Below are positions 20,289-41,268 of a DNA stretch of 64,000 nt, one piece after another (the first letter of the stretch is position 1; each line of letters begins with the position of its first letter). The notes beneath the pieces were generated by a model, which was given only the letters and a program-made list of their open reading frames with translations, searched no databases and was not told the DNA's origin. Source of the stretch: Thiobacillus sp. (GTDB taxonomy: Bacteria > Pseudomonadota > Gammaproteobacteria > Burkholderiales > Thiobacillaceae); assembly GCA_019459325.1 (NCBI GenBank), contig JAIBFA010000054.1:1-64000 (forward strand), in the 5' to 3' direction. Made by a program: the position numbers and the translations under genes.

Positions 20289-20900
20289 TCAGACGAACAG
20301 GCACACGTCGGATTTCTGCGCGGTAGGCAGAAAGCTCGCCGCACCGATCCAGCCTTCGATCTCGGGGATGAATTCATCCTGCGAATAGCCGAACAGGTCC
20401 ACCGTCATCTGGCAGGCAAACAGTTTGACGTCGGCCTCGATGCAGGCATGCCGCAATTCATCGATGGTGGCCACGCCCTTGCTCTTCACTGTTTGCTTCA
20501 TCAGCCCGGTCGCCACTTTTTCGAAACCGGGCAAGCCCGCCATGACGGCATTCGGAACATTCCAGTTGATGTCTTTGAGCCACTGGGGTCCAAACGGCAT
20601 TTTCATCGGCATGCTGGGGTTGCCGAGCGGGCTGATCTCGAGATGCAGATCCTTCTTGAGCAGTTCCAGTCCGTAGAAGGTGAAGAAAACCGACACGTCC
20701 CAGCCCAGTGCCGAAGCCGTGGACGCCAGGATGAAAGGGGGATAGGCCCAGTCCATCGTGCCCTTGGTGGCGATGATGGACAGAGACGGCACATGCGCGG
20801 CTTCGCGCTCGGCCATTTTGCTTTCAAAGCGCTGATCGAACCACTGATCGAACCGGGATTTGTCCAGATTCTCCGGAATGAGTTTGTCTGCTGCGCCCAT
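20289..20900 (-). CDS. dsrE2: DsrE/DsrF/DrsH-like family protein (DsrE2)
   Basis: Paired conserved Cys in RHACIEADVKLFACQMTVDLFGY; next to tusA. Confidence 0.85.
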   Translation of the reverse strand: MGAADKLIPENLDKSRFDQWFDQRFESKMAEREAAHVPSLSIIATKGTMDWAYPPFILASTASALGWDVSVFFTFYGLELLKKDLHLEISPLGNPSMPMKMPFGPQWLKDINWNVPNAVMAGLPGFEKVATGLMKQTVKSKGVATIDELRHACIEADVKLFACQMTVDLFGYSQDEFIPEIEGWIGAASFLPTAQKSDVCLFV

Positions 20901-20910
20901 GGTTCTCTCC

Positions 20911-21144
20911 TTAAGTCCTGCGAATGAGGAATTCAAACTCGCCCTGATTCGCGCTTGAAGAAATCAGCTCGTGCCCGGTTTGCTTGCAGAAGGCCTGCAT
21001 GTCCTTCAAGGAGCCGGGATCGGTGGCCGTGACGGCGAGCGTTTCACCCGCGCTCATGGTCGACAAGGCCTTTTTGGTGCGCAGAATGGGCAAGGGACAG
21101 TTCATGCCGCGTGTATCCAGAGATTGCGTTGCGTTCGTGCTCAT
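20911..21144 (-). CDS. tusA: TusA-family sulfurtransferase
   Basis: LDTRGMNCPLPILRTKKAL (CPxP motif), about 77 aa. Confidence 0.93.
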   Translation of the reverse strand: MSTNATQSLDTRGMNCPLPILRTKKALSTMSAGETLAVTATDPGSLKDMQAFCKQTGHELISSSANQGEFEFLIRRT

Positions 21145-24433: not shown

Positions 24434-25078
24434 ATGAAGCTGATCCTGGCCGACGACCACACCTTGTTTCGTAACGGACTGGCCTTGCTGCTCAAGTCGC
24501 ACCACGCCGACTGCGAAATCTGGGAAGGGGATGGCCTGGATGCCGCACTGGCCGAAGCCCAAGCCCATCCCGATGCCGAGGTCGCGCTGCTCGACCTGAA
24601 CATGCCAGGCATGGATGGCGTTCGAGGGATCCGGCGCTTCATTGAATCGCATCCCGGGCTGCCGCTCATCATCCTGACCGGTGCCGAGGAGCCGCAACAA
24701 ATTCAGGAGATGCTGTCGGCGGGCGCTTCTGGATACATCCCTAAAAGTTCGACGTCCGCCGTGATGTTGTCCGCGATCCAGCTGGTGCTCTCGGGGGGAA
24801 CCTATGTTCCGCCGCAGGCGCTTTCCACGGTGCCAACCACCGCGTCCAGTCGGGCCGGCTCAAATGGACGGGAGCATGCCCAAACTCAGTTGACCGAGCG
24901 CCAGATGCAGGTGCTGCGCCTGCTGGCCGCGGGCAAACCCAACAAGCTCATCTGCCGTGAACTCAATATCGAGGAAGGCACGGTCAAGGCGCATATCGCC
25001 ACCATCTTTCGGGTGCTGGACGTGGTCAACCGCACCGAGGCGGCGACCGTGGCGCGGGCAACCGGGCTGCTGGATTGA
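24434..25078 (+). CDS. LuxR/NarL-family response regulator
   Basis: REC: MKLILADDHTLFRNGLALLL, ALLDLNMPGMDGV; C-terminal LTERQMQVLRLLAAGKPNKLICRELNIEEGTVKAHIATIFRVL. Confidence 0.95.
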   Translation: MKLILADDHTLFRNGLALLLKSHHADCEIWEGDGLDAALAEAQAHPDAEVALLDLNMPGMDGVRGIRRFIESHPGLPLIILTGAEEPQQIQEMLSAGASGYIPKSSTSAVMLSAIQLVLSGGTYVPPQALSTVPTTASSRAGSNGREHAQTQLTERQMQVLRLLAAGKPNKLICRELNIEEGTVKAHIATIFRVLDVVNRTEAATVARATGLLD

Positions 25079-25091
25079 GCCTGTTCAGGGT

Positions 25092-25313
25092 TTACATCGC
25101 CACGATCTGGGCGCCATAACCCAGATCGCGAACCTGCCCCAGGATCGCTGCCGCAGAGGTGGAGTCCGGATCGTAGGCCACAAACATCAGATGGTCGTGA
25201 CCAGGGCTGAAGCGCGGCGCAATCACGCCTGCCACATCCCGCAAGGACTCCTCCAGCCGGAAGCGTCCGTTTTCCTCGGTTGATTCGTTGACGTGAATCA
25301 ATACATCGCTCAT
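25092..25313 (-). CDS. small protein with HMA/ferredoxin-like beta-alpha-beta pattern, no CxxC
   Basis: MSDVLIHVNESTEENGRFRLEESLRDVAGVIAPRFSPGHDHLMFVAYDPDSTSAAAILGQVRDLGYGAQIVAM; listed ORF extends too far upstream. Confidence 0.65.
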   Translation of the reverse strand: MSDVLIHVNESTEENGRFRLEESLRDVAGVIAPRFSPGHDHLMFVAYDPDSTSAAAILGQVRDLGYGAQIVAM

Positions 25314-25404
25314 GTTCATGGTGTTCTCCTTGTCGACAGACTCGGCCTCATTTATGGCCGCTCTACCGTTCCATATTGCCGTAACCGGAAACAGGGGCAT
25401 TTGC

Positions 25405-25779
25405 TTACATGCATCCCGGTGATTCCGTTTCGGCACTGCTCTGTACATTGCTGTTCGCCGTGTCTGTCGGAATGGTCTTCCGCGTGCCGAGAAACATCAT
25501 GTATTCGATGCGGTCGAAATGCGCGGACAAAGCCTGATCGACCTCGCGATCGGTGAGCCCATCGTAGATGTAGACATTACCCTCACGTTCGTGCACTCGC
25601 TCGTGCTCCGTGGGCTGATTCAGACGGCGCAGCAGCCACTGTTCCAGATTCGTTTGTGCCGAATCCTCCGCCGCGCCAACGGGCAGGGCGCACATCAACG
25701 CAGTTGCGGCCAACATGCAGCCGAAAATCCAACGGCGGCGAACCGCCGCTGGCCCCATCGTGTTTTCAATCCTGTTCAT
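25405..25779 (-). CDS. hypothetical exported protein
   Basis: Hydrophobic signal segment IFGCMLAATALMCALPVGAAEDS; conserved-looking NVYIYDGLTDREVDQALSAHFDRIEYMMFLGTRK. Confidence 0.6.
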   Translation of the reverse strand: MNRIENTMGPAAVRRRWIFGCMLAATALMCALPVGAAEDSAQTNLEQWLLRRLNQPTEHERVHEREGNVYIYDGLTDREVDQALSAHFDRIEYMMFLGTRKTIPTDTANSNVQSSAETESPGCM

Positions 25780-25781
25780 GG

Positions 25782-26159
25782 TCAGGCCCTCCTGTATTGG
25801 AAAAGCATCCTGCTGCCGCCTGCTGCGATATGGGCTTGCCGCACTTCCTGGATGCCCTCATATCCGTCAAGCAGGTTGTAAACATGCTTGAACCCGATTG
25901 TTTCCAGTAGCGCGGCCGCTTCGCAGGAGCGATGCCCGCTGCGGCAGATCACCAGCACATAGTCTTCAGGGGCGATGCATTGCAGCACCCGATCAAGAAA
26001 GCCCCGGTTGGGCTCCCAGTCTGGCGTGTACCAGGGCACATGATGGTCGCCTGGAAGATGCCCGGCTTCGCGTTCATACGCAAAGCGGACATCCAGCACT
26101 TTGGCGCGTGGATGAAGCAGGAAAAACGCGGCCATACCATCAGCGGTCAGGTGTCTCAT
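25782..26159 (-). CDS. rhodanese-like sulfurtransferase domain protein
   Basis: Active-site loop VICRSGHRSCEAAALLETIGFKHVYNLLDGYEG. Confidence 0.9.
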   Translation of the reverse strand: MRHLTADGMAAFFLLHPRAKVLDVRFAYEREAGHLPGDHHVPWYTPDWEPNRGFLDRVLQCIAPEDYVLVICRSGHRSCEAAALLETIGFKHVYNLLDGYEGIQEVRQAHIAAGGSRMLFQYRRA

Positions 26160-26191
26160 GGCGCCTCCTGTAAGTGCTTGGCAAAGACGGA

Positions 26192-26434
26192 TCAATTGCC
26201 GTCGCAATCCCCGCCGTTGACGGGGGGTGCATCGGTCGGCAACGCCTGCCCGCTCACCTTGGCCGCCGTATTTCCGGCAGCCGTCTTCGCGTCGTCACCT
26301 GCTGTGGGTGCAGCGGCCTCCCTCTGGGCAATCGTCGGGCGTTCCGGGTTTGCTTGCGCTTCGGGCGGGCCGGCCTGCGCCACGCCTGCAATCAGCAATG
26401 CCGCGCCAGCCAGCAATAAGGTCTGCTTTGACAT
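26192..26434 (-). CDS. small exported hypothetical protein
   Basis: Signal peptide MSKQTLLLAGAALLIAGVAQAG followed by Ala/Pro-rich low-complexity sequence. Confidence 0.5.
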   Translation of the reverse strand: MSKQTLLLAGAALLIAGVAQAGPPEAQANPERPTIAQREAAAPTAGDDAKTAAGNTAAKVSGQALPTDAPPVNGGDCDGN

Positions 26435-26535
26435 GATCCAACTCCATTCAGCCGCCAACATTGACGATTGCAGTGTGGCGCATCGAAAAGCGGGCTGAAT
26501 CAGCAAGTCAGGCTAATCCGGGACGGCAAGCGGCC

Positions 26536-26556
26536 TAAGCCATCCAGGATGGATTA
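26536..26556. promoter_or_regulatory. 21-bp near-perfect palindrome in divergent promoter region
   Basis: TAAGCCATCC-A-GGATGGATTA (9 of 10 arm positions pair), between 26434(-) and 26623(+). Confidence 0.5.
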
Positions 26557-26622
26557 AGCCAATTGGTCTATATCCAGAACAGCGGTTTCCAATAAGCTCA
26601 AGACAAGCACAAGGGAGTACCA

Positions 26623-28560
26623 ATGCTTAATCGATCACTTGCCGTCATGGCGTGCATGCCCACGGTATTGGCATGGGCCGCGCCCGCGGACCCGCTTTCG
26701 GAGATGGATTATTTCTCAGAGCAGCCGGTGGTACTGTCCGCATCCAGATTGTCCCAGCCGGTGAACCGTGCCCCGGCCGCAGTGACAGTCATCACGCGGG
26801 AGATGATCGAGGCTTCCGGTTTTCGCCATTTGCCCGACCTGTTGCGGCTGGTGCCGGGTTTTCAGGTGAGCTGGGTTCGCGGCAACATACCGACGGTCAC
26901 TTATCAGGGTCTGTCGAGCATCTATTCGCGTCGTATACAGGTGCTGGTGGATGGCCGTTCGGTCTACAACCCGGCCTACGGCCAGGTGCAATGGCGCGGC
27001 ATACCGCTGGCGCTGGATGACATCGACCGCATCGAGGTGGTGCGCGGGCCCAATGCCGCCAACGATGGTGTCAACGCCGTCCAGGCGAGCATCCACATCT
27101 ACACCCGGTCTGCATCTGATGATCCCGGCTGGACAGTCGGTGCGTCTGTTGGCTCGGCGAAAGTCCGTGACGGCCTGCTACGGTACGCTGGCGCCAGCGG
27201 CGACTGGCTATGGCGCGTCACCCTCAACAGCCGCAGTGACGACTGGCTCAAAAACCAGCGGGACGAGGCGCACGACCACCTGCTTGATGCGCGCGCCGAG
27301 TGGCGACCCAACAACCGCGATGCAGTGACGCTGCAAGCGGGTGGCGTGTTGGGCGAGTGGGATAACAGCTCGGTCGGTTACACCTTCTCCAATCAACAGA
27401 CCACTGATTTTTTCAACGGCTATGTGCAGGCCCGCTGGCAGCGAACCTTGAGCACGAGAAGCGAATGGAGCCTGCTGGTCAACCATACCGTCACGCGCGC
27501 TGACGAAACGTTCCCGCCCATTCCCGCCCCGTTGCCTTTTTCTGGCGTACTTGCTCCAGACAATCTCAATTACGGGTTCAGCCGCAGCGCGCTGGAGTTT
27601 TCCTGGCAGGGTCAACCCTTGGAACAATTGCGCACCGTATGGACGGCGGAAGCCCGGCTCGACCGGGCCTGGTCCGCCAGCCTGGCGGGGCCGGATACGC
27701 ACCAGGGCACCATGTACCGGCTGTCCGGCAGCATGGAATGGAATCCGGCCGAGGAATGGGTATTGCACGCCGGTGCCATGCTGGAGAAGCACTACTATGC
27801 GGGCACCCGCCTGTCGCCAAGGCTTGCCGTCAATTGGCTGCCGGTGCCGGGACACAGTTTTCGCCTGGGTGTCAGCCGGGCCTATCGTTCTCCCACCTTC
27901 CTGGAACAGGAATCGGATTTCAAATTCACCCAGGCGCCATTCATTTTCGATCAGCGTCTGCTCAGTCCCTTCAAACTCAAACCTGAGCGCATGGACAGCG
28001 TGGAACTGGGCTACCTGTTCCACCTGCAGAAGCTTGGCCTGGACCTGGACACCAGGCTATTCCACAACCGTCTTGACGACATCATCGACTTTACAACGCC
28101 CTATCCTGTTGCGGGCGAGCTCGCAGGCGACGGCGCTGATTTGACTTACGCCAATCTCTACCGGGCGCACCAATGGGGTGGCGAGTACCAATTGCGCTGG
28201 CAGCCCGGCAAAGCCACCTGGCTGGCCCTGTCACAGTCACGGACGCGTATTCGTTCCGATTTTCAGGATCTGGTCGACTCTGCCCCCGCGCAAAGCCTCA
28301 CGCTGCTGGCCAGTCATGATTTCGGCTTGCTGAGCGGCAGCGTCGGCTATTACCGGGTGGGCAAAATTCGCTGGGTGGGTTCCTTCGAGACCCCGGCCTA
28401 CGACCGTATCGATTTGCGACTGAGTCGGGCATTCAAGGTCGGCAACACACGTGCAGAACTGGCCGTGGTGGCGCAGAGCATCCTGGGCGATTACAGCGAA
28501 TTCGATACCGACCGACTGTTTGAGCCACGGGCTTATGTGTCTTTCAAAATGCATTTCTGA
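26623..28560 (+). CDS. TonB-dependent outer membrane receptor
   Basis: Plug domain PVNRAPAAVTVITREMIEASGFRHLPDLLRLVPGF...DDIDRIEVVRGPNAANDG; C-terminal aromatic VSFKMHF. Confidence 0.93.
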   Translation: MLNRSLAVMACMPTVLAWAAPADPLSEMDYFSEQPVVLSASRLSQPVNRAPAAVTVITREMIEASGFRHLPDLLRLVPGFQVSWVRGNIPTVTYQGLSSIYSRRIQVLVDGRSVYNPAYGQVQWRGIPLALDDIDRIEVVRGPNAANDGVNAVQASIHIYTRSASDDPGWTVGASVGSAKVRDGLLRYAGASGDWLWRVTLNSRSDDWLKNQRDEAHDHLLDARAEWRPNNRDAVTLQAGGVLGEWDNSSVGYTFSNQQTTDFFNGYVQARWQRTLSTRSEWSLLVNHTVTRADETFPPIPAPLPFSGVLAPDNLNYGFSRSALEFSWQGQPLEQLRTVWTAEARLDRAWSASLAGPDTHQGTMYRLSGSMEWNPAEEWVLHAGAMLEKHYYAGTRLSPRLAVNWLPVPGHSFRLGVSRAYRSPTFLEQESDFKFTQAPFIFDQRLLSPFKLKPERMDSVELGYLFHLQKLGLDLDTRLFHNRLDDIIDFTTPYPVAGELAGDGADLTYANLYRAHQWGGEYQLRWQPGKATWLALSQSRTRIRSDFQDLVDSAPAQSLTLLASHDFGLLSGSVGYYRVGKIRWVGSFETPAYDRIDLRLSRAFKVGNTRAELAVVAQSILGDYSEFDTDRLFEPRAYVSFKMHF

Positions 28561-28639
28561 TGCGGCAGACTTCCCGGGTCGCATGCACGGGAAGCAGGCT
28601 CCATGTGGGGGCCGAGCAATAGAAGGGGGGGCTGGAACG

Positions 28640-30589
28640 ATGTTTAAAAAATATGCTTTCAGTCTGGCTATGATGCAGCCGGCACTGGCGTTGGCTGCGT
28701 CGGCAGCCCCCCTTTCGGAGGCGGACTATTTTTCGGAACAGCCTGTGGTGCTGTCGGCGTCGAAGCTCTCGCAGCCGGTGAATCGCGCGCCGGCGGCGGT
28801 CACCGTCATCACGCGCGAGATGATCGAGGCTTCGGGCTTTCGTCATCTGGTGGATGTGCTGCGTCTGGTGCCGGGCTTTGCAGTGGGTTGGGCAGGCGGC
28901 AACATGCCGGCGGCGACTTATCTCGGCCTGTCCGACGCCTTTCCCCATTGGATGCAGATCATGGTGGACGGGCGCAGTGTCTACAACCCGGCTTATGGCC
29001 ATACGACCTGGCGCGGCATTCCGCTGACGCTCGACGACGTCGACCGCATCGAGGTTGTGCGCGGCCCAAACGCGGCAAACGACGGCCTCAATTCCATGCT
29101 TGGGACCATCCACATCTTTACCCGTCACTCAGCCACCACGCAGGGTGGCATGGGCGAGGTCGCGGTGGGCGACAAGCAGTTCAGGGAAATTACTATGAGA
29201 TACGGTGGCGAAGTCAGCAAGGGGAGCTGGCGGATTGGCCTGCTGGGCCGGGAGGACGAAAGGCACGCTGTTCCACAGGATCATGCGTCAGATCTGCAGC
29301 TGAATTTCCGCGGCGATTTCGCGCCCACGCTTCAGGACGACATGATGCTGCAGTTCGGCGCATCCCGTGGGTTCTGGATGGGCAGCAATGTTGGCCAATT
29401 GATGGACGCCGATCAGCACACCTATTATCTCAGTGGCTTTGCCAACCTCGTGTGGAAGCATGCGCTGGGCGAGGGGCGGGAGTGGTCGCTGCAACTGCAA
29501 CACACCTTCAACCAGAACGAGGAGGCGATACCGCTGCCAGGTCCGTTGGACCCGATCAGCGGAAACTATAGAACGACCGGCAGCGGCGTCCAGTTCACCT
29601 ACCTGAACATGGCGGCGTCGGAATGGCGTACGAGTTTATCCGGCGAATTCCGGTTGAACCGGGTGAATTTGCCTGCCCTCCTGGGGCGCGACGCGTACTT
29701 CAAGGATGACATCTTCCGCTTGTCCGGCGCGGTGGAATGGAGCCCGTCCAACGAGTGGGTATGGCATGCCGGCCTCATGATCGAGCGCCATTCCGACACC
29801 ACCAGTACCTATCTCTCGCCACGTCTCGCACTCAACTGGTTGCCTTCCGGCGAACATGCCTTCCGCCTCGGTGTGTCTCACGGAGTGTCGGCCCCCGGTT
29901 TGTATGCGAACAACACCGACATCAAGCTCACAGTCAACGGCACGCTGTATGACCAGTTGAATCTGAGCGTCAATCAACTCGATGCCGAGAAGATCAACAG
30001 TGTCGAGCTTGGTTATCTGTTCAACAAGCCGGATTGGGGTCTCAATTTGGATGTCCGTGTGTTCCATAACAGGATTTACGACATCGTGGACACGCATTAC
30101 ATCGGAGTTAATGATCCGGAATACATCAACGCCCCGGATGGCAACGGTTGGTTCACCTATATCAACAAACCAGAGGTCAGGCAACGCGGACTGGAATATC
30201 AGGTGCGTTGGCATCCAACCCCCAAGGGCTGGCTGGTTTTGTCTCAAACCTGGTTATCAACCGAGTCCGCTCCGGAAACGGGGTGGTACCCAATCTCTGT
30301 TCCACAACACACCCTTTCGTTTTTGGCAGCGCACCCTGTTGCAGGCATCAACGTGAGTCTGGGTTATTACTTCCTGGACAACATGCGTTGGTTTGAGGGT
30401 CATTTCGATAGCAAGCACAACCGCCTCGACCTGCGTCTGTCCAGGGACTGGAAAACCAGCGACGGAAAAGTCGAGGCGGCTCTGGTGATACAAAGTCTGC
30501 TGGGTCAGGAAGAAGAAAGCTTCAAAAATTATTATCAGCAACTGTTTGACCGGCGCGGCTATCTCAGCCTGAAATACGAGTTCCGATAG
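28640..30589 (+). CDS. TonB-dependent outer membrane receptor, paralog of 26623-28560
   Basis: MFKKYAFSLAMM signal; plug motif almost identical to upstream gene; listed ORF start too far upstream. Confidence 0.93.
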   Translation: MFKKYAFSLAMMQPALALAASAAPLSEADYFSEQPVVLSASKLSQPVNRAPAAVTVITREMIEASGFRHLVDVLRLVPGFAVGWAGGNMPAATYLGLSDAFPHWMQIMVDGRSVYNPAYGHTTWRGIPLTLDDVDRIEVVRGPNAANDGLNSMLGTIHIFTRHSATTQGGMGEVAVGDKQFREITMRYGGEVSKGSWRIGLLGREDERHAVPQDHASDLQLNFRGDFAPTLQDDMMLQFGASRGFWMGSNVGQLMDADQHTYYLSGFANLVWKHALGEGREWSLQLQHTFNQNEEAIPLPGPLDPISGNYRTTGSGVQFTYLNMAASEWRTSLSGEFRLNRVNLPALLGRDAYFKDDIFRLSGAVEWSPSNEWVWHAGLMIERHSDTTSTYLSPRLALNWLPSGEHAFRLGVSHGVSAPGLYANNTDIKLTVNGTLYDQLNLSVNQLDAEKINSVELGYLFNKPDWGLNLDVRVFHNRIYDIVDTHYIGVNDPEYINAPDGNGWFTYINKPEVRQRGLEYQVRWHPTPKGWLVLSQTWLSTESAPETGWYPISVPQHTLSFLAAHPVAGINVSLGYYFLDNMRWFEGHFDSKHNRLDLRLSRDWKTSDGKVEAALVIQSLLGQEEESFKNYYQQLFDRRGYLSLKYEFR

Positions 30590-30643
30590 CCTGATGAAGA
30601 CCTGTAGCCATCACTTGTCGGACAGCGCGAGGCGGGCCAGCCC

Positions 30644-31555
30644 ATGATCTGGTTGCTGCGGCATCATCTTGCCCGCCTGTCCTTTGTCCTCCTGGCCTGC
30701 AGCTTGCTCTGCGCCGGGCTGGCGCGTGCGGCACCGGTTATCAACGTGCTGGTGGCGGAACCCACGGGCATCTATCAGGAAACCGCCAACAGTCTGACCC
30801 AGGCCCTGGGTCGCGAGGGCTGGAAGGTCACCGTCACCTCACCTGGGCGCAATCCCGCGAGCGGCGGCGACCTGACGGTGGCGATAGGCACCAAGGCACT
30901 GGAAGCGGCCCTGGCTCAGCCCGGACGCCCGGTGTTGTCGCTGCTGGTCCCTCAACTGACCTATGAACGACTGGCCTCGGGACAGCAGCAAGTCAGCGCC
31001 CTGTATCTGGATCAACCGCTGACACGCCAGTTGCGACTGCTCGGCCTGGCGCTGCCCGGCATGAAAAAGGCGGGGGTTCCCCTCGGACCCGCCAGTCAGG
31101 GACTGCAGGCAGCCTTGCAAAATGCAGCGAAAGACAGCGGCATACAGGTCAACAGCGCCCCGATCAATAAGGGTTCAGATATGTATGCCGTCCTGATCGA
31201 CTTGGCGGAGGACAGCCAGGCCTTCCTGCTGTTGCCCGATCCGGTGGCGACCCAACGCAGCACGCTGCAGAATTTCTTCCTCCAGACCTACCGGCTGAAG
31301 AAACCGGTGCTGGCGTATTCCGCGCCGCTCGTGCAAAGCGGCGCGCTATTGGCCCTCTATGCCACCCCCGCGCAACTGGGTGAGGAAGCCGCAGCCTGGA
31401 TCAGGGAGAGCTGGTCCAAAGGCGTGTTCCGCATGGGAGAGGCACGTTATCCGAAGCGTTTCACCATCGGCGTCAATCACACCGTCGCGCGTTCCCTTGA
31501 TATAGCCCTGCCCAGCGAGGCTGCGCTCACCCGCCAGCTGGAGGCCATGCCATGA
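30644..31555 (+). CDS. periplasmic ABC-type substrate-binding-like protein (PF04392-like)
   Basis: Signal peptide; VINVLVAEPTGIYQETANSLTQALGREGW, VAIGTKALEAAL, PVLSLLVPQLTYERL; no permease or ATPase alongside. Confidence 0.7.
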   Translation: MIWLLRHHLARLSFVLLACSLLCAGLARAAPVINVLVAEPTGIYQETANSLTQALGREGWKVTVTSPGRNPASGGDLTVAIGTKALEAALAQPGRPVLSLLVPQLTYERLASGQQQVSALYLDQPLTRQLRLLGLALPGMKKAGVPLGPASQGLQAALQNAAKDSGIQVNSAPINKGSDMYAVLIDLAEDSQAFLLLPDPVATQRSTLQNFFLQTYRLKKPVLAYSAPLVQSGALLALYATPAQLGEEAAAWIRESWSKGVFRMGEARYPKRFTIGVNHTVARSLDIALPSEAALTRQLEAMP

Positions 31556-33441
31556 AAATCCGCACACGCGCTTTCATGCTGGGATTGCTGCCGACCCTGC
31601 TGGTGGCGGTGGTGTTGACGGCCTACCATCTCCATTCCCGCCTGGATGACCTGGAAAGGACGATGACGCAGCAGGGCATGGCGATGGCCCACCATCTGGC
31701 GTCTTCCGCCGAATACGGCGTGTTCAGCGGAAACACGGCTGAACTGGACAAGCTGCTTGGTCAGGCGATGGAAGAGCCCGGCGTGGCAAGCGCGGCGGTG
31801 ATATGGCCGGACCAGGCCAGGCTGGCGCGCGGTGAGGCCATCACCCGCCTGCCACCGCTGGGCAAGGCCAGCCAATGGCAGGTCGGCAAGCGTTCCTGGT
31901 TTGCCTATCCTGTGCAGCTAAGCCCGCTGGATAAAAACGATCCCTTCAATGAAGACAGAACGACCGCCAGTGCCCCGCTTGCCTGGGTCGTGGTCGGTAT
32001 CGATTTGCATCAGAAGCAGGTGCTCGCGCAGAGATTATTGCTGGCCAGTCTGGGTATCACGCTGCTCGGGCTTGCGCTGTCCATCCTGCTGATCTATCAG
32101 CTTGCCCTGAGCGGGGTGCAACCGCTTCTGGACATCATCGCCACGGTCAAGCGCATCAGTTCGGGCGCCTTCGGGACACATATGGATGTCACCGCCCGCT
32201 CGCCGGAACTGCGCGAGTTGCAGGCCATGGTCAACCAGATGAGCGAATCGTTGCGATCCTACCAGCAGGAAATGGAGGCCAAGGTACGCACGGTCACCGC
32301 CGAGCTGGAATACAAGAAAAAGGAAGCGGAGCAGGCCAGCCTCGCCAAATCCCGCTTCCTGGCCGCCGCCAGCCATGACCTGCGGCAGCCCATGCATGCC
32401 ATCAGCCTCTATGTGGAAAGTCTCAAGCCGCAGATGCAGGGCCGCGCGGCGGAAGACACCCTGAACAAGATCGAGCGCTCGATACTCGGCACGGTAGAGC
32501 TGTTCAACGCCATTCTAGACGTGACCAAGCTCGACGCAGGCGTGGTCCAGCCCACTCTCGCGCCCGTACGCATCCGGAAACTTTATCTCCAACTGGCGGA
32601 TGAATTCAGCGCCGAGGCCGACAGGAGAGGGCTGTCTCTGCGCGTGCGCGCCCCCGATGTCTGGATTGAAAGCGACGCAATCCTGCTGGAGCGCATTGTT
32701 CGCAACCTGCTGTCCAATGCGCTACTCCACACCACGCGCGGAGGCGTTCTTCTGTCAGCCAGGCCCTGTCAAGGAAAACTGCGACTGCAAATATGGGATA
32801 CCGGGAGCGGCATCGCCCCCGAACATCAGCCGCGTATTTTCGAGGAGTTCTACCAGGCGGAAACGCAGTCGCCGCAAACGCGCCATGGGCTCGGCCTGGG
32901 ATTGGCCATCGTCCGTCGCCTGGCCCGATTGCTGGGCTATCCCCTTCAATTGCATTCCCGGTCTGGGCAGGGCACGGTGTTCTCGCTGGATGTGCCGGTT
33001 CTGGAAAACGGCCCGGCAGACATCGACGAACCGGACGAGGGCAGCAGCGGAACCCTGAAAGGATGGGCGGTTGTCGTGGACGACGATCCGGCCGTACTCA
33101 ACGCGCTGGGCCACCTGATGCGGCAATGGGGCATGGAGACGCGGCTATTTAACAGCCTGCAGCAGATCGTGCATGACCTGCAGACCGCGCCCGATGTGGT
33201 TCTCGCAGATTACCAGCTGCTCAACGGGGAAACCGGGCTGATGGTCGCGTGCGAGGTGCACAAGCGCTGGGGTGCGCATATCCCGATCGTGCTTATTACC
33301 GGTGACACGCGCACGGAAACCATTCAGACCTTGCGCCAAAGCGGCTTTCCGATCCTTCACAAGCCGGTGAGCGCCAATCAGCTGCGCGCTTTGCTTTCGA
33401 CCCTGCTACAGGAACCCTCCATTCGTCAAACCGGCGGATGA
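31552..33441 (+). CDS. hybrid sensor histidine kinase/response regulator
   Basis: Two TM segments, HAMP-like linker, H-box AAASHDLRQPMHAISLYVESL, ATPase GTGSGIAPEHQPRIFEEF-type and GLGLGLAIVRRLARLLG, C-terminal REC (VVDDDPAVLNALG, VVLADYQL). Confidence 0.95.
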   Translation: MKIRTRAFMLGLLPTLLVAVVLTAYHLHSRLDDLERTMTQQGMAMAHHLASSAEYGVFSGNTAELDKLLGQAMEEPGVASAAVIWPDQARLARGEAITRLPPLGKASQWQVGKRSWFAYPVQLSPLDKNDPFNEDRTTASAPLAWVVVGIDLHQKQVLAQRLLLASLGITLLGLALSILLIYQLALSGVQPLLDIIATVKRISSGAFGTHMDVTARSPELRELQAMVNQMSESLRSYQQEMEAKVRTVTAELEYKKKEAEQASLAKSRFLAAASHDLRQPMHAISLYVESLKPQMQGRAAEDTLNKIERSILGTVELFNAILDVTKLDAGVVQPTLAPVRIRKLYLQLADEFSAEADRRGLSLRVRAPDVWIESDAILLERIVRNLLSNALLHTTRGGVLLSARPCQGKLRLQIWDTGSGIAPEHQPRIFEEFYQAETQSPQTRHGLGLGLAIVRRLARLLGYPLQLHSRSGQGTVFSLDVPVLENGPADIDEPDEGSSGTLKGWAVVVDDDPAVLNALGHLMRQWGMETRLFNSLQQIVHDLQTAPDVVLADYQLLNGETGLMVACEVHKRWGAHIPIVLITGDTRTETIQTLRQSGFPILHKPVSANQLRALLSTLLQEPSIRQTGG

Positions 33442-34305: not shown

Positions 34306-35430
34306 ATGTTTTCCTCACCCGAACCCGCCGGATTTCTGCCGCTTGACCAGTTGCATGCACTGGTGGCCAGGCTCATGCAGTTGGGGTATCAATGTCTGGG
34401 ACCGGCTGTGGAAAACGACGCCATCGTCATGCGCGAACTCGATGCGCCCGACGGACTGCCGCGCGGTTTGCAGGCCGAGCAGGCGCCGGGCCGCTACCGG
34501 CTGACGACCGATCCCCAACACCGCTATTTCGCCTGGGCCAACGGACCGCAAGCCATCAAGCCGCAGGCGTTCGCGCCGCAGGAATCGCTGTGGCGCGTGG
34601 AACGGGACGCGGCGGGCATGCTGCAATTCGAAGCCGTGGTGCCGAATGCGCCCGCGCAAGCCATCATCGGCGTACGCGCCTGTGACCTGGCGGCCTTGGC
34701 CTTGCAGGATGCGCATTTCCTGCGCGAAGGCCGGCGCGATCCGCACTACGCCAAACGACGCGAGCAGCTGTTTCTGGTGGCGGTGCAATGTGCCGAGCCG
34801 GGGGCGACCTGCTTTTGCGCCTCCACCGGCGACGGCCCGACCCCGACCGCGGGCTACGACCTTGCGCTGGCAGAACTGCCGGACGGCTTTGTTGCGGTGT
34901 CCGGCAGTGCGAAGGGCGCTGCGGTACTGAGCGCATTGAATCTGTCGGCGGCCAACGCGCAGCAGGTCGACGCCGTCCGCCAGCAGGGACAAGCCGCCGC
35001 AGCCGCCCAGACACGCAGCCTGCCGGGGCGCACGCTGCGCGACGCGCTGATGAGCCGTCTGGAACATCCGCGCTGGGACGAGGTGGCGTCCCGCTGCCTC
35101 GCCTGCGGCAACTGCACCGCAGTATGCCCCACCTGTTTCTGCCACGCCGAGATCGACGGACCTGCGCTCGACGGCGAGGCCAGCCGCCACGAGCGAATCT
35201 GGGATTCATGCTTCGGCGAGAGCCACGGCCATCTGCATGGATTCAACGTGCGGCCCGATATTCGCAGCCGCTACCGTCAGTGGCTGACCCACAAGCTCGC
35301 CACGTGGCATGACCAGTTCGGCCGCAGCGGCTGCGTCGGCTGCGGTCGCTGCATCGCCTGGTGCCCGGTGGGCATCGACCTGACTGAAGAAGTCGCCGCG
35401 TTGACGGGCAGCGGGGTGAGCCATGAATGA
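34306..35430 (+). CDS. hydB: NiFe hydrogenase (group 3b, sulfhydrogenase-type) beta subunit, 4Fe-4S protein
   Basis: CLACGNCTAVCPTCFC and CVGCGRCIAWCPVGID clusters; first gene of hydrogenase operon. Confidence 0.88.
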   Translation: MFSSPEPAGFLPLDQLHALVARLMQLGYQCLGPAVENDAIVMRELDAPDGLPRGLQAEQAPGRYRLTTDPQHRYFAWANGPQAIKPQAFAPQESLWRVERDAAGMLQFEAVVPNAPAQAIIGVRACDLAALALQDAHFLREGRRDPHYAKRREQLFLVAVQCAEPGATCFCASTGDGPTPTAGYDLALAELPDGFVAVSGSAKGAAVLSALNLSAANAQQVDAVRQQGQAAAAAQTRSLPGRTLRDALMSRLEHPRWDEVASRCLACGNCTAVCPTCFCHAEIDGPALDGEASRHERIWDSCFGESHGHLHGFNVRPDIRSRYRQWLTHKLATWHDQFGRSGCVGCGRCIAWCPVGIDLTEEVAALTGSGVSHE

Positions 35431-36274
35431 TATGTCGCAGGGAATCGATGCCGGACCGCCGCATGCCGCCACCGTGGTGGCGCGCACCCAGGAATCCCCC
35501 ACCATCTTTACCCTGCAGCTGCGCCTCGACGATGCGGCGACGCAGGCGGCCTACCGCTTCGCCCCCGGCCAGTTCAACATGCTGTATCTCTACGGCGTCG
35601 GCGAGGTGCCGATTTCCATCATGTCCGACCCGGAAGAGCGCGATGTCATCGGCCATACCATCCGCGCGCAGGGGCGCGTCACGCAGGGACTCGCGGCGCT
35701 GCAACCCGGCGACCAGGTCGGGCTGCGCGGGCCGTTCGGGCGTGGCTGGCCGCTGCAGGAAGTGAGCGGATGCGACGTCGTGCTGGTGACGGGCGGCCTC
35801 GGCTGCGCGCCGGTGGTGTCGGTCATCCGTTACGTGTTGCGCCGGCGCGAACGCTTCGGCAAGCTGGTCATCATCCAGGGCGTGAAGCATGCCGAGGACC
35901 TGATCTGGCGTGAGCAGTACGACCGCTGGGCGACGCTGCCGGATACGCAGGTGCTGGTGGCGGCGAGCGAAGGCGCGGCGTTCTGGCCCTGGCATGTCGG
36001 CCGGGTGACCGAACTGTTCGGTCTCGCCAACTTCGACCCGGACTGCGCCGTGGCGATGATGTGCGGGCCGGAAGGCATGATGCATGCGGCGGCCGACAGC
36101 CTGCTGGCGCGCGGCCTGCCCGAGTCGCGCCTGTATCTCAGCATGGAACGCAACATGCAGTGTGCCGTGGGCCGCTGCGGCCACTGCCAGATCGGCGGCG
36201 CCTTCGTCTGCCGTGACGGTCCGGTGTTCAACTGGGGCGAGGTCAAGGCCTTGCTGGCACACAGGGGGTTCTGA
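35423..36274 (+). CDS. hydG: NiFe hydrogenase gamma subunit, FAD/NAD(P)-binding
   Basis: Ferredoxin-NADP reductase-like fold; C-terminal CAVGRCGHCQIGGAFVCRDGPVF. Confidence 0.9.
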   Translation: MNDMSQGIDAGPPHAATVVARTQESPTIFTLQLRLDDAATQAAYRFAPGQFNMLYLYGVGEVPISIMSDPEERDVIGHTIRAQGRVTQGLAALQPGDQVGLRGPFGRGWPLQEVSGCDVVLVTGGLGCAPVVSVIRYVLRRRERFGKLVIIQGVKHAEDLIWREQYDRWATLPDTQVLVAASEGAAFWPWHVGRVTELFGLANFDPDCAVAMMCGPEGMMHAAADSLLARGLPESRLYLSMERNMQCAVGRCGHCQIGGAFVCRDGPVFNWGEVKALLAHRGF

Positions 36275-37077
36275 TGAATACGCCGAAAGCCGATCCCATC
36301 AAGCCGCGCGTGGCAGTGCACAAGTTCAGCTCCTGCGACGGTTGCCAACTGGCCTTCCTCAATCTCGGCGAGGATCTGCTCACGCTGGCCGGGCGGGTCG
36401 AGCTTGTCCACTTTGCCGAGGCCGGGCCGCTCGATCCGGATACCGATGTGGACGTCGCGTTTGTCGAAGGCAGCGTGTCGACAGCGGAAGACCTCGAGCG
36501 CATCCAGCACATCCGCCAGCACAGCGGACTGCTGATCGCCATCGGCGCCTGCGCCACCTCGGGTGGCATCCAGGGCCTGCGCAACGGCGTCTTCGGCGAA
36601 AACTGGGTGACGCAGATCTACAGCCATCCCGAGGCGATTGCCAGCCTGGAACGCTCGACTCCGATATCGAGCCACGTCAAAGTGGATTTCGAACTGTGGG
36701 GCTGCCCGGTCAGCGGCCCGCAGATGCTGGCCGTGGTGAATTCCCTGCTGCTCGGCGTGACCCCGCGCGACAACGCCGACAAGGTGTGCACCGAATGCAA
36801 GCGGCGCGGCTATCCCTGCATCATGGTTACGCGCGGGATTGCCTGCATGGGTCCGGTGACGCGGGCCGGCTGCGGCGCGCTGTGTCCCAGCCTCGGGCGC
36901 GACTGCTACGGCTGCTACGGCCCGGCGGAAAATGCCAACACCGGTGCGCTGGCGGTGCAGTTCCGCAGCCAGGGGCTGAGCCCTGAGGCCGTCGTGCAGC
37001 GTTTCCAGTCGATCAACAGCCAGGCGCCGGTGTTTCTCGCCGCCGCCGACAGGATCAGGATAAAAAGCCATGACTGA
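36274..37077 (+). CDS. hydD: NiFe hydrogenase delta (small) subunit
   Basis: KFSSCDGCQLAFLNLGEDLL, IGACATSGGIQ, CGALCPSLGRDCYGCYG. Confidence 0.93.
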   Translation: MNTPKADPIKPRVAVHKFSSCDGCQLAFLNLGEDLLTLAGRVELVHFAEAGPLDPDTDVDVAFVEGSVSTAEDLERIQHIRQHSGLLIAIGACATSGGIQGLRNGVFGENWVTQIYSHPEAIASLERSTPISSHVKVDFELWGCPVSGPQMLAVVNSLLLGVTPRDNADKVCTECKRRGYPCIMVTRGIACMGPVTRAGCGALCPSLGRDCYGCYGPAENANTGALAVQFRSQGLSPEAVVQRFQSINSQAPVFLAAADRIRIKSHD

Positions 37078-38371
37078 CCAGCAACGCAGTGTCGCGATCC
37101 ATGTGCCGGTGCTCGCCCGGGTGGAAGGCGAGGGCGCTCTCGACCTGCGCATCGAGGATGGCGACATCGCCGAGTTGCGTCTACGCATTTTCGAGCCGCC
37201 GCGCTTCTTCGAGAAGTTTCTCGAAGGCCGCCACTACACCGAAATCCCCGACATGGTGGCGCGCATCTGCGGCATCTGTCCCGTGGCGTATCAGGTCACT
37301 GCGGCGCAGGCGCTGGAGAAGCTGTTTGGCGTCGAACTCGATCCCTGGGCACGCGACATGCGCCGGGTGTTCTACTGCGGCGAATGGATCCAGAGCCACA
37401 GCCTGCACATCCACCTGCTGGCAGCGCCGGATTTTTTCGGCTGCAACAACGCCATCGAGCTGGCGCGCATTGCGCCGGAGGAAGTGCGCCGCGGTCTGCG
37501 CATCCAGGCGCTGGGCAACGAACTGATGGACCTGTTCGGCGCCCGCTCGGTGCATCCGGTGGGCGTGCGTATCGGCGGCTTCCATGGCGCGCCCTCACTG
37601 GCGCGCATTCAGGCTATGCGGGAAAAACTGCGCGCGGCCTTGCCGGAAGCCGAAGCGCTGATTCGCTGGGCAGCCGCCATTCCGATGCCGCAGGACGATC
37701 AGGCGTTCGTTTCGGTGGCCACACACCACCCGACCGATTACGCCATCGAACGCGGCCAGATCGCGGTCAGCGACGGACTGCGCATAGAGGCGGATGCCTT
37801 TGACGCCCATTTCGCCGAGCAGCACGTACCGCATTCCACTGCGCTGTTCAGCACCTATCACCATCAGCCGTATCTGGTCGGTCCGCTGGCGCGCTTGAAT
37901 CTCAACCACGTGCGTCTGCCCGAACAGGTCAGGGCATTGCTGACCGAAAGCGGCCTGGCGCTGCCCAGCCGCAATCTGTTCCACAGCCTGCTGGCGCGCG
38001 CGGTGGAAATCCTGCTCGCCCTGCACGAAGCACTCCGCCTGCTTGATGGCTATCGCGTACCGGATTCGCCCTGGGTGCCGGTCACGCCGCGCGCCGGCGT
38101 CGCCATCGGCTGCACCGAAGCACCGCGGGGCCTGTTGTGGCACCGCTATGAAATGGACGGTGAGGGGCGGGTGGTCAACGCGCGCATCGTGCCGCCGACC
38201 AGCCAGAACCAGGGGCGCATCGAGGAAGACCTGCGGCTGTCGCTGCTCAACTTCGGGCTTGATCATCCGGACGACGCACTGCGCCTGCATTGCGAAAAAG
38301 TCATTCGCAACTACGACCCCTGCATTTCCTGCGCGACCCACTTTCTGCGTTTCAATCTCGACCGCGCGTGA
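37070..38371 (+). CDS. hydA: NiFe hydrogenase alpha (large) subunit, group 3b-like
   Basis: L1 RICGICPVAYQ and L2 DPCISCATHF nickel-ligand motifs; processable C-terminus FLRFNLDRA. Confidence 0.95.
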   Translation: MTDQQRSVAIHVPVLARVEGEGALDLRIEDGDIAELRLRIFEPPRFFEKFLEGRHYTEIPDMVARICGICPVAYQVTAAQALEKLFGVELDPWARDMRRVFYCGEWIQSHSLHIHLLAAPDFFGCNNAIELARIAPEEVRRGLRIQALGNELMDLFGARSVHPVGVRIGGFHGAPSLARIQAMREKLRAALPEAEALIRWAAAIPMPQDDQAFVSVATHHPTDYAIERGQIAVSDGLRIEADAFDAHFAEQHVPHSTALFSTYHHQPYLVGPLARLNLNHVRLPEQVRALLTESGLALPSRNLFHSLLARAVEILLALHEALRLLDGYRVPDSPWVPVTPRAGVAIGCTEAPRGLLWHRYEMDGEGRVVNARIVPPTSQNQGRIEEDLRLSLLNFGLDHPDDALRLHCEKVIRNYDPCISCATHFLRFNLDRA

Positions 38372-38976: not shown

Positions 38977-41268
38977 GTGAGACACGACACGGCTCAAACC
39001 CTTAGGACAGAAAATCGCGTGGTGTTTCGTATTTTTCTACAGGCCGGGCTGTTCTGGCTGGCGTCGTGTTCCCTGGCGTGGGCCGCGCAGGACAGCATTC
39101 CGGTCCGGGTAGGCGTATTCGAGAATTCGCCTATCGTCACAGCAGCGCCCGGCGCGCTCCCCGAAGGCATCGCGATCGACATGATCCGCTGGGTGGCCGA
39201 ACGGGAAGGATGGCAGATCACCTATGTCCCCGATTCCTTTGACAACCTCGTAGAACGTCTCGACAAGGGCGATATCGATCTGCTCGTAGGCTTCGCCTAT
39301 AGTGACGAACGCGCCAAACGTTTCCAGTTCAGCCAGCAGAGCCTGCTTGGCAACTGGGGGATGGTGTTCCGTCATGCCCAAGCCGACATCAATTCGCTCC
39401 CCGATCTCAAAGGCAAGCGGATCGCGCTCATGCGCAGCAGTACCCACGGCCAGGCCCTGGTTGCCTTGTTGACCCAGTTCGACGCGCCGTTCACGCCTGT
39501 CTACGTGGATACCTATCCCCAGGTTCTGGAAGCGATCGTCGAGCGTCGGGCCGACGCGGGCGCGGTGAACCGGGTGTTTGCCGCGCTGCATGCGCACCAT
39601 CCGGACGTGGTGGTGACCAGCATCGTCTTCAATCCCGTTTTCGTTCACTACGCGGCACCGAAGGGCGCCAACCCGGCGCTGCTGGCGGCGCTCGACCGTC
39701 ATCTGGCGGCGCTCAAGGCGGACCCGCAGTCGGCCTACTACGATTCCTTGCGGCATTGGCTCGAAGCGACGCCTGGCAACCGGGTTCCAAACTGGCTGCC
39801 GTGGACCGCTGCCGCTGCCGGAAGCCTGCTGGTACTGGTGTTGGTCGTCGCCGGGTTTCTGCGCTATCAGGTGCAGCGCCAGACCGGCGAACTGCAGCGG
39901 CGTGCCGACCAACTGCAGTCCGAGATCGAACAGCGCGAGCAGGCCCAGGCGCATTTGAATCAGCTTGCCTATTTCGACGGACTGACCAAGTTGCCGAACC
40001 GAGAGGGTTTTCGTACCGCACTGCACCAGACCTTGACAGGCTTGCAGGGCACCGATGAACGCCTGGCCTTGCTGTTCATCGATGTCGATCGTCTGAAAAA
40101 CATCAACGACGGACTCGGACACGGCGCGGGCGATCTGCTGCTGCAGCAGATCGCCATACGCTTGCAATCGGTGTTGCGTGCGCACGATCATCTGAGCCGC
40201 TTCGGCGGTGATGAGTTCGTCGTGATCGTGTCCGAAATCGGCGCATCCTCGGATGCCGAGCTGGTGGCCACCCGGCTGCTGCAAAGCCTGGCCATGCCGA
40301 TCGATATCGGCGCCACCCAGATCTACAGCAGTGCCAGCATCGGCATTGCGCTGTATCCGGACGACGCGACGTCGATGGAAACGCTGCTCAAACATGCCGA
40401 CACGGCCATGTATCAGGCGAAGGAGCAGGGCGGCAACCGTTCCCTGTTCTATCAAGCGCAGCAGACCGAACGCGTGGTCGAACGATTGACCCTCGACACC
40501 CGCTTGCGTCAAGCGCTGGAACGCGACGAACTGCTGTTGCATTACCAGCCGATCGTGGAGTTGGGCAGCCGGCGTATCGTCGGGGTCGAGGCGCTGCTGC
40601 GCTGGAACGATCCGGATCGCGGCATGGTGATGCCGGGCGCGTTCATTTCAGCCGCCGAGGACACCGGCCTGATCGTTCCGCTCGGCGAGTGGGTGCTCGA
40701 AGCCGGCTGTGCTCAGCTGCGTGACTGGCAGAAGCGGGGGATGGCAGACGGCATGACGCTGGCAGTGAACGTGTCTACCCGTCAGTTCGAAGGGCGGCGC
40801 CTGGTGAAATCGGTGGAGCAGTCGCTTTCACGCACCGGTCTGGCGCCGGAGTTTCTCGAACTGGAGATCACCGAGAACGTGATGCTGATCATGAACGACG
40901 AGGTGCGCAGCAGCCTCGACAGCTTGCGCGGAATGGGCGTTCGTCTGTCGCTCGACGATTTCGGTACCGGCTATTCCAGTCTGAGCTATCTGAAACAGCT
41001 GCCGTTTCATACGCTCAAGATTGACCAGTCGTTTGTCAGCAAAATCCCGGGGCAGGCGGGCGACACCCAGATCGTGACGACGATTCTTGCGCTGGCAAAA
41101 GGCCTGGAGCTGGAGGTCGTCGCCGAGGGCATCGAAACTCAGGTGCAGTATGATTTCCTGCGCGAACATGGCTGCGAATTCGGCCAGGGTTATCTGATGA
41201 GCCGGCCGCAGCCGGCGGACGTACTGGCCGCCATGCTCGGCCGGCCGCTGGTCGCCGGCATCGCCTAG
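38977..41268 (+). CDS. periplasmic-binding-domain diguanylate cyclase/phosphodiesterase (SBP_bac_3-GGDEF-EAL)
   Basis: PBP N-terminus, TM, RAHDHLSRFGGDEF, EALLRW, DDFGTGYSSL, EGIET. Confidence 0.95.
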   Translation: MRHDTAQTLRTENRVVFRIFLQAGLFWLASCSLAWAAQDSIPVRVGVFENSPIVTAAPGALPEGIAIDMIRWVAEREGWQITYVPDSFDNLVERLDKGDIDLLVGFAYSDERAKRFQFSQQSLLGNWGMVFRHAQADINSLPDLKGKRIALMRSSTHGQALVALLTQFDAPFTPVYVDTYPQVLEAIVERRADAGAVNRVFAALHAHHPDVVVTSIVFNPVFVHYAAPKGANPALLAALDRHLAALKADPQSAYYDSLRHWLEATPGNRVPNWLPWTAAAAGSLLVLVLVVAGFLRYQVQRQTGELQRRADQLQSEIEQREQAQAHLNQLAYFDGLTKLPNREGFRTALHQTLTGLQGTDERLALLFIDVDRLKNINDGLGHGAGDLLLQQIAIRLQSVLRAHDHLSRFGGDEFVVIVSEIGASSDAELVATRLLQSLAMPIDIGATQIYSSASIGIALYPDDATSMETLLKHADTAMYQAKEQGGNRSLFYQAQQTERVVERLTLDTRLRQALERDELLLHYQPIVELGSRRIVGVEALLRWNDPDRGMVMPGAFISAAEDTGLIVPLGEWVLEAGCAQLRDWQKRGMADGMTLAVNVSTRQFEGRRLVKSVEQSLSRTGLAPEFLELEITENVMLIMNDEVRSSLDSLRGMGVRLSLDDFGTGYSSLSYLKQLPFHTLKIDQSFVSKIPGQAGDTQIVTTILALAKGLELEVVAEGIETQVQYDFLREHGCEFGQGYLMSRPQPADVLAAMLGRPLVAGIA

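Follow-up and report, generated by a model that had tools for sequence, protein, structure and literature searches.

In the LuxP-LuxQ and NspS-MbaA systems, the gene for a periplasmic binding protein accompanies that of a membrane sensor kinase or of a cyclic di-GMP (c-di-GMP) enzyme, there is no transporter, and the binding protein presents its ligand to the sensor. YfiBNR unites an outer-membrane, a periplasmic and a cyclase component for signalling, and in FecA-FecR-FecI an outer-membrane TonB-dependent receptor (TBDR) feeds signalling. Kinases activated by solute-binding proteins have been discussed elsewhere (PMC11113362). Here we analysed a locus in a 64,000-nt stretch of Thiobacillus sp. 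DNA (assembly GCA_019459325.1, contig JAIBFA010000054.1, positions 1 to 64,000; hereafter the window), in which two TBDR genes, a gene for a periplasmic binding protein of Pfam family PF04392 and a hybrid histidine kinase gene form a plus-strand operon (26623-33441). The gene for a LuxR-type response regulator, also on the plus strand, precedes the operon by 1.5 kb, with four minus-strand genes between (Table 1). From gene order, domain content and comparison among genomes, we put a probability of about 0.68 on the reading that the locus encodes a modular trans-envelope sensory relay, running from TBDR to binding protein to Cache sensor, and not an importer. No earlier description of TBDRs combined with this PF04392 branch and BarA/GacS-type sensors was found in the open-licence literature; what is new would be that combination, applied to the known principle by which a sensor receives its ligand from a binding protein.

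The locus shares some traits with each of these systems and departs from them in others. Compared with LuxP-LuxQ and NspS-MbaA, it has a binding protein of another family, another sensor domain, and TBDRs in the operon, which those systems lack. FecA is the closest parallel for an outer-membrane receptor that feeds signalling, but the window TBDRs have no N-terminal STN signalling domain (Pfam) and no adjacent anti-sigma or extracytoplasmic function sigma factor gene, and the messenger here would be the binding protein. YfiBNR differs in its parts: YfiR is not known to belong to PF04392, nor YfiB to the TBDRs. With the TrpXYZ-type PF04392 importers the locus has the binding-protein fold in common (3lft, 3lkv), whereas it lacks the permease and ATPase, carries a DQPxxR signature and has a sensor adjoining instead. 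It does have the arrangement of a binding-protein-assisted sensor, in which the genes for binding protein and membrane sensor stand together and no transporter gene accompanies them.

The binding protein was used as the sole query in a neighbourhood survey, so that the neighbours were not selected for. Among 60 relatives, four genus-mates have close orthologues, while nearly all other genus members, and other families too, have a paralogue with ~36% identity. A profile built from 12 such binding proteins matched, at E<=1e-15, 89 of 370 Gammaproteobacteria (GTDB class), about a quarter, and 59 of the 200 genomes sampled from the order; the weakest matches at this threshold are canonical PF04392 proteins. 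We retrieved 120 of the stronger places, some intermediates included, and annotated them with hidden Markov models made here from Pfam-verified domains. The survey counts are not independent of one another, since related genomes of a single genus are among those counted; a further locus from a contig scan (L052) appears to be the same record as genome G612. An sCache_4 membrane sensor is encoded directly downstream on the same strand in 130 of the 138 members of the binding-protein family, and a TBDR directly upstream in 100. The junction between binding protein and sensor is at most 150 bp in 129 pairs, and an exact 4-nt overlap in 64 of 130; the ATGA overlap in the window is consistent with translational coupling of the binding protein and kinase. 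The order TBDR, binding protein, sensor (the module) recurs across many families with unrelated flanks and differing outputs. The sequence-only reading had expected the neighbourhood to be conserved in other genomes, and it is, far beyond the genus.

We looked for a transporter partner at three scales. No permease or ATPase gene was found near the window binding protein, no TrpY-like permease was matched anywhere in the window genome (E<=1e-25), and a TrpXYZ-type permease stands beside none of the 138 family members. In two canonical TrpX-like loci that served as positive controls (L048 and L172), permease and ATPase genes were found next door. Across whole genomes, 36 of 38 carriers of the module, that of the window included, have no TrpY-like permease. 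Of the parts of a TrpXYZ-like importer, the locus has the binding protein and neither the cognate permease nor the ATPase, and we rejected a plain TBDR/ABC (ATP-binding cassette) importer because there is no permease partner. ATPase matches that lie ~4.5 kb ahead of the genus paralogue resemble, by sequence, an ABC-F (Uup-like) protein and not an importer component. The conserved gene order together with the missing permease favours what had been proposed from the letters alone, a capture route from outer membrane to periplasm that would feed signalling rather than import. An importer could still operate in another form: the TBDRs may import a nutrient that the binding protein hands to an unlinked or unrelated inner-membrane transporter, with the kinase and regulator only controlling expression of the cluster. 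TBDRs and binding proteins are transport-type proteins, and they occur without an adjacent sensor at three loci (L095, L096 and L100). We consider such a regulated importer unlikely: the binding protein appears to be coupled translationally to a sensor and not to a permease, the TrpY-like permease is missing as described, GGDEF and EAL outputs do not directly regulate a transport operon, and the genus-wide paralogue has a binding protein and sensor with no TBDR.

The window binding protein scores 35.2 bits against PF04392 (gathering threshold 25.9; 1e-8), the matched part being residues 117-255. Its AlphaFold model (predicted local distance difference test score, pLDDT, 90.5) shows a two-lobed binding-protein fold, for which the closest folds by Foldseek are 3lkv, 3lft (L-Trp complex) and 6hni. 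D123, Q124, P125 and R128 (DQPxxR, residues 123-128) are kept in 88-93% of 136 module-branch sequences, and the same position in 3lkv, 3lft and 6hni reads SDxxP or SDxxS, with no arginine. Because DQPxxR differs from the canonical motif, the binding pocket is probably altered relative to canonical PF04392 members, and tryptophan cannot be transferred to this branch as its ligand. The replaced motif and the partial PF04392 match could also be taken as signs that the protein carries no ligand and is instead a degenerate regulator, keeping its sensor in a single state in the way that YfiR acts on YfiN, with the TBDR as an input for the state of the surface or envelope and not a channel. The full two-lobed fold of a high-confidence model and the strong conservation at many positions over both lobes make this quite improbable.

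The outputs attached to the module vary. Across loci the sensors are BarA-like kinase-REC(-REC)-HPt proteins, kinase-REC proteins, GGDEF proteins or GGDEF-EAL proteins, and the binding-protein tree (a quick tree with many weak branches) calls for at least 11 changes between kinase and cyclase outputs. Within one genus, binding proteins that are 71-78% identical adjoin kinase-REC-HPt, GGDEF and GGDEF-EAL outputs (L041, L134 and L141). The divergences of the TBDR, the binding protein and the sCache_4 domain correlate (Spearman 0.62-0.66); in a permutation test of binding protein against sensor only, the largest of 200 permutations reached 0.24. Such a correlation would be expected for parts that evolve together.

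The window kinase has the sCache_4, HAMP, HisKA, HATPase and REC domains of BarA/GacS kinases, with the histidine of HisKA in an SHDLRQP box at about residue 275. Its N-terminal sensor model (pLDDT 91) resembles the Cache domains of WalK, LapD-type proteins and CitA; by sequence the closest solved structure, at weak significance, is 5o7j, which we take to be the GacS detector domain. The periplasmic domain family is common to the module sensors, and many module kinases match the BarA model end to end, whereas the window kinase is short, has one receiver domain and no HPt, and has a NahK/ErcS-like catalytic part (Pfam, NCBIfam). It scores 208.6 bits against the BarA model (cutoff 890) with no C-terminal HPt, and 337.6 against NF041832, its closest model (cutoff 400), i.e., it is related to NahK/ErcS kinases and not a member by rule. 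At the Pseudomonas putida ped locus, a LuxR regulator and a rhodanese gene lie beside a NahK/ErcS-type kinase (PMC12997753); in contrast to NahK/ErcS and ped/erb loci, no NosP and no pyrroloquinoline quinone alcohol-dehydrogenase genes were seen near the window kinase. The pairing of the hybrid kinase with the LuxR regulator, first suggested from the window alone, recurs in the genus: of 56 genomes, 12 carry the regulator and 10 the kinase, and every genome with the kinase is one of the 12 (Fisher test 1.9e-9, uncorrected for relatedness). In genome G617 the regulator directly precedes the kinase at the same chromosomal site, and the TBDRs, binding protein and rhodanese are missing. This adjacency without the cassette suggests that the regulator is the likely output of the kinase and that the TBDRs and binding protein form an input cassette that can be separated from both. 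Regulators 36-40% identical to that of the window adjoin modules in distant genomes, and a stand-alone HPt candidate is encoded in the window genome (G000:C24:10666).

A rhodanese and 'HMA-like' small-gene operon and a sulfur- or metal-related ligand had also been proposed. The rhodanese is the sole recognised domain among the four small minus-strand genes; the gene labelled 'HMA-like' (25092-25319) has no Pfam match and reaches 16.6 bits against an NCBIfam UxxU metal-binding model with a cutoff of 95, and the label is unsupported. The rhodanese follows the TBDR/binding-protein cassette within the genus and does not accompany the module outside it, so it was ruled out, with the 'HMA-like' gene, as part of the module core. 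When neighbours were clustered across 113 loci, cysM was the sole recurrent sulfur gene, and it belongs to the barA/gacS synteny block. That the whole is a sulfur- or metal-responsive system including the small-gene operon is very doubtful, and the guess at the ligand is weak: retention of the rhodanese beside the module in genus-mates and the TusA and DsrE_2 genes nearby (20289-21144, minus strand) speak for it, and the restriction of that association to the genus, the failed label and the tryptophan bound by the closest solved relative with a known ligand (3lft) speak against it. A further solved relative, CD0873, binds tyrosine and was counted on the same side. In G617 a DsrE-like gene (L174:11193-11618) lies between the kinase and a mechanosensitive channel, and sulfur-trafficking genes cluster around the site. 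Chance hitch-hiking of an ordinary two-component system beside a TBDR/binding-protein cassette, to which the kinase and regulator without cassette in G617, G010 and G014 could point, is extremely unlikely, since it is contradicted by the 130 of 138 adjacencies and by the recurrence of this gene order across many families, where flanks are unrelated and outputs differ.

In the relay that we favour, the TBDRs, powered by TonB/ExbBD encoded elsewhere in the genome, would admit a scarce extracellular ligand to the periplasm, where the dedicated PF04392-branch binding protein, having lost its transporter partner, would capture it. The loaded or empty binding protein may then contact the sCache_4 domain of the neighbouring sensor and switch its output. 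In the window the signal would pass through the NahK-like hybrid kinase, most likely to the LuxR-type regulator, directly or via a separate HPt protein; in relatives, the input module would drive BarA/GacS-type phosphorelay kinases or c-di-GMP enzymes. Several observations weigh against the relay. The kinase is kept without the binding protein in the three genus-mates named above, L095, L096 and L100 have no adjacent sensor, and the genus-wide paralogue and other loci have no adjacent TBDR. Shared vertical descent also contributes to the correlated divergences. In E. coli, BarA itself responds to acetate by way of the periplasmic domain (PMC8639471), which shows that an sCache_4 sensor can do without a binding protein.

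All genes named in the sequence-only reading, and the start-stop overlap, were recovered by open reading frames, Pfam and NCBIfam (Table 1). Both receptors qualify as TBDRs by their plug (PF07715) and barrel (PF00593) and by ExbD in the genome; their best NCBIfam model, NF053590, is under its cutoff. For the second receptor, the ATG at 28640 is a more likely start than the first possible start at 28451. Four ExbD genes were found in the genome outside the locus, one of them just beyond the window (G000:C56:65128).

Table 1. Features of the Thiobacillus sp. locus, in window coordinates
Feature	Position	Strand	Evidence or remark
LuxR/NarL-type response regulator	24434-25078	+	Pfam REC 6e-20, GerE 3e-17
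Small protein, ~75 aa, no assigned function	25092-25319	-	No Pfam match; weak sub-cutoff NCBIfam match
Secreted 124-aa protein, no known family	25405-25779	-	Kept beside the module in some genus-mates
Rhodanese-domain protein	25782-26159	-	Pfam PF00581 3e-14
Small secreted protein, 80 aa, no known family	26192-26434	-	
TBDR1, plug and barrel	26623-28560	+	Pfam
TBDR2, plug and barrel	28640-30589	+	Pfam; 46% identical to TBDR1
Periplasmic binding protein, PF04392 (ABC_sub_bind), transporter-free branch	30644-31555	+	DQPxxR signature
ATGA stop/start overlap, binding protein/kinase	31552-31555	+	Sequence
Hybrid histidine kinase, sCache_4 + HAMP + HisKA + HATPase + REC	31552-33441	+	Pfam

The flanks are separate from the locus. 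Upstream, TusA, DsrE_2 and TetR-family genes are followed by scpA, scpB and a gene for a pseudouridine synthase (the scpA and scpB names are our reading of the translations); downstream lie an MscS-like channel gene and a four-gene cytoplasmic [NiFe]-hydrogenase operon (34306-38371), which probably belongs to the NAD(P)-linked group 3. At 38977-41268 an SBP_bac_3-type periplasmic domain is, by eye, fused to GGDEF-EAL, a second link between a binding protein and c-di-GMP near the locus. An Rfam scan gave no match, promoter and terminator counts were at chance level, and a plasmid search returned distant, uninformative matches only. Variant arrangements were noted elsewhere. The genus-wide paralogue (G000:C105:18344-19246; L032:8333-9310) is encoded with an sCache_4-GGDEF-EAL sensor at a conserved site. 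At L095, L096 and L100 a TsaA-like methyltransferase gene follows the TBDR and binding protein, and a sensor may act in trans. At L049, five tandem PF04392-like binding proteins stand directly upstream of a 1498-aa kinase, a possible variant of the same idea. Another tandem TBDR pair in the window genome (L183, G000:C36:26684-30819) is about 40% identical to TBDR1, and most members of the genus have similar receptors; beside the ones inspected, neither a sensor nor a binding protein was detected.

Many gammaproteobacterial modules have the kinase of the BarA/GacS locus as their sensor. In at least 41 loci the module lies beside cysM/rlmD and/or pdxJ/acpS/recO/era/rnc, with both sides present in 22; these genes surround barA in E. 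coli and gacS in Pseudomonas. The NCBI BarA model is the best match for ten module kinases, nine of which align along most or all of its length at 530-781 bits (cutoff 890), and of 39 module genomes, 37 have their best BarA match in the kinase that adjoins the binding protein (positions read by hand). The curated cutoff is passed in three genomes (G341, G407 and G255) at 907-920 bits; at these loci (L088, L081 and L123) a transporter-free binding protein is encoded directly upstream of the BarA-passing kinase, with no adjacent TBDR. The GacS ligand has been described as unknown (PMC7695008), and the word TonB is absent from that review, from the BarA acetate paper (PMC8639471) and from the GacS structure paper (PMC5595915). 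We tentatively suggest, as a possibility that we hold to be doubtful, that the TBDR/binding-protein relay was the ancestral input of BarA/GacS-type sensors, that an extracellular ligand, taken in via a TonB receptor and presented by the binding protein, controls the Gac/Csr switch in many Gammaproteobacteria, and that lineages such as Pseudomonas and E. coli lost or replaced the relay.

The survey also shows one input module joined to kinases at some loci and to c-di-GMP enzymes at others; if the relay is real, it would add a class of outer-to-inner-membrane signalling beside the FecA-type transducers. In many Gammaproteobacteria, BarA/GacS controls the switch between lifestyles. Should the dedicated input of BarA/GacS-type sensors be a binding protein that can be purified, the ligand could be sought by standard binding screens, and the 'evanescent' GacS signal would become traceable through the ligand of the binding protein.

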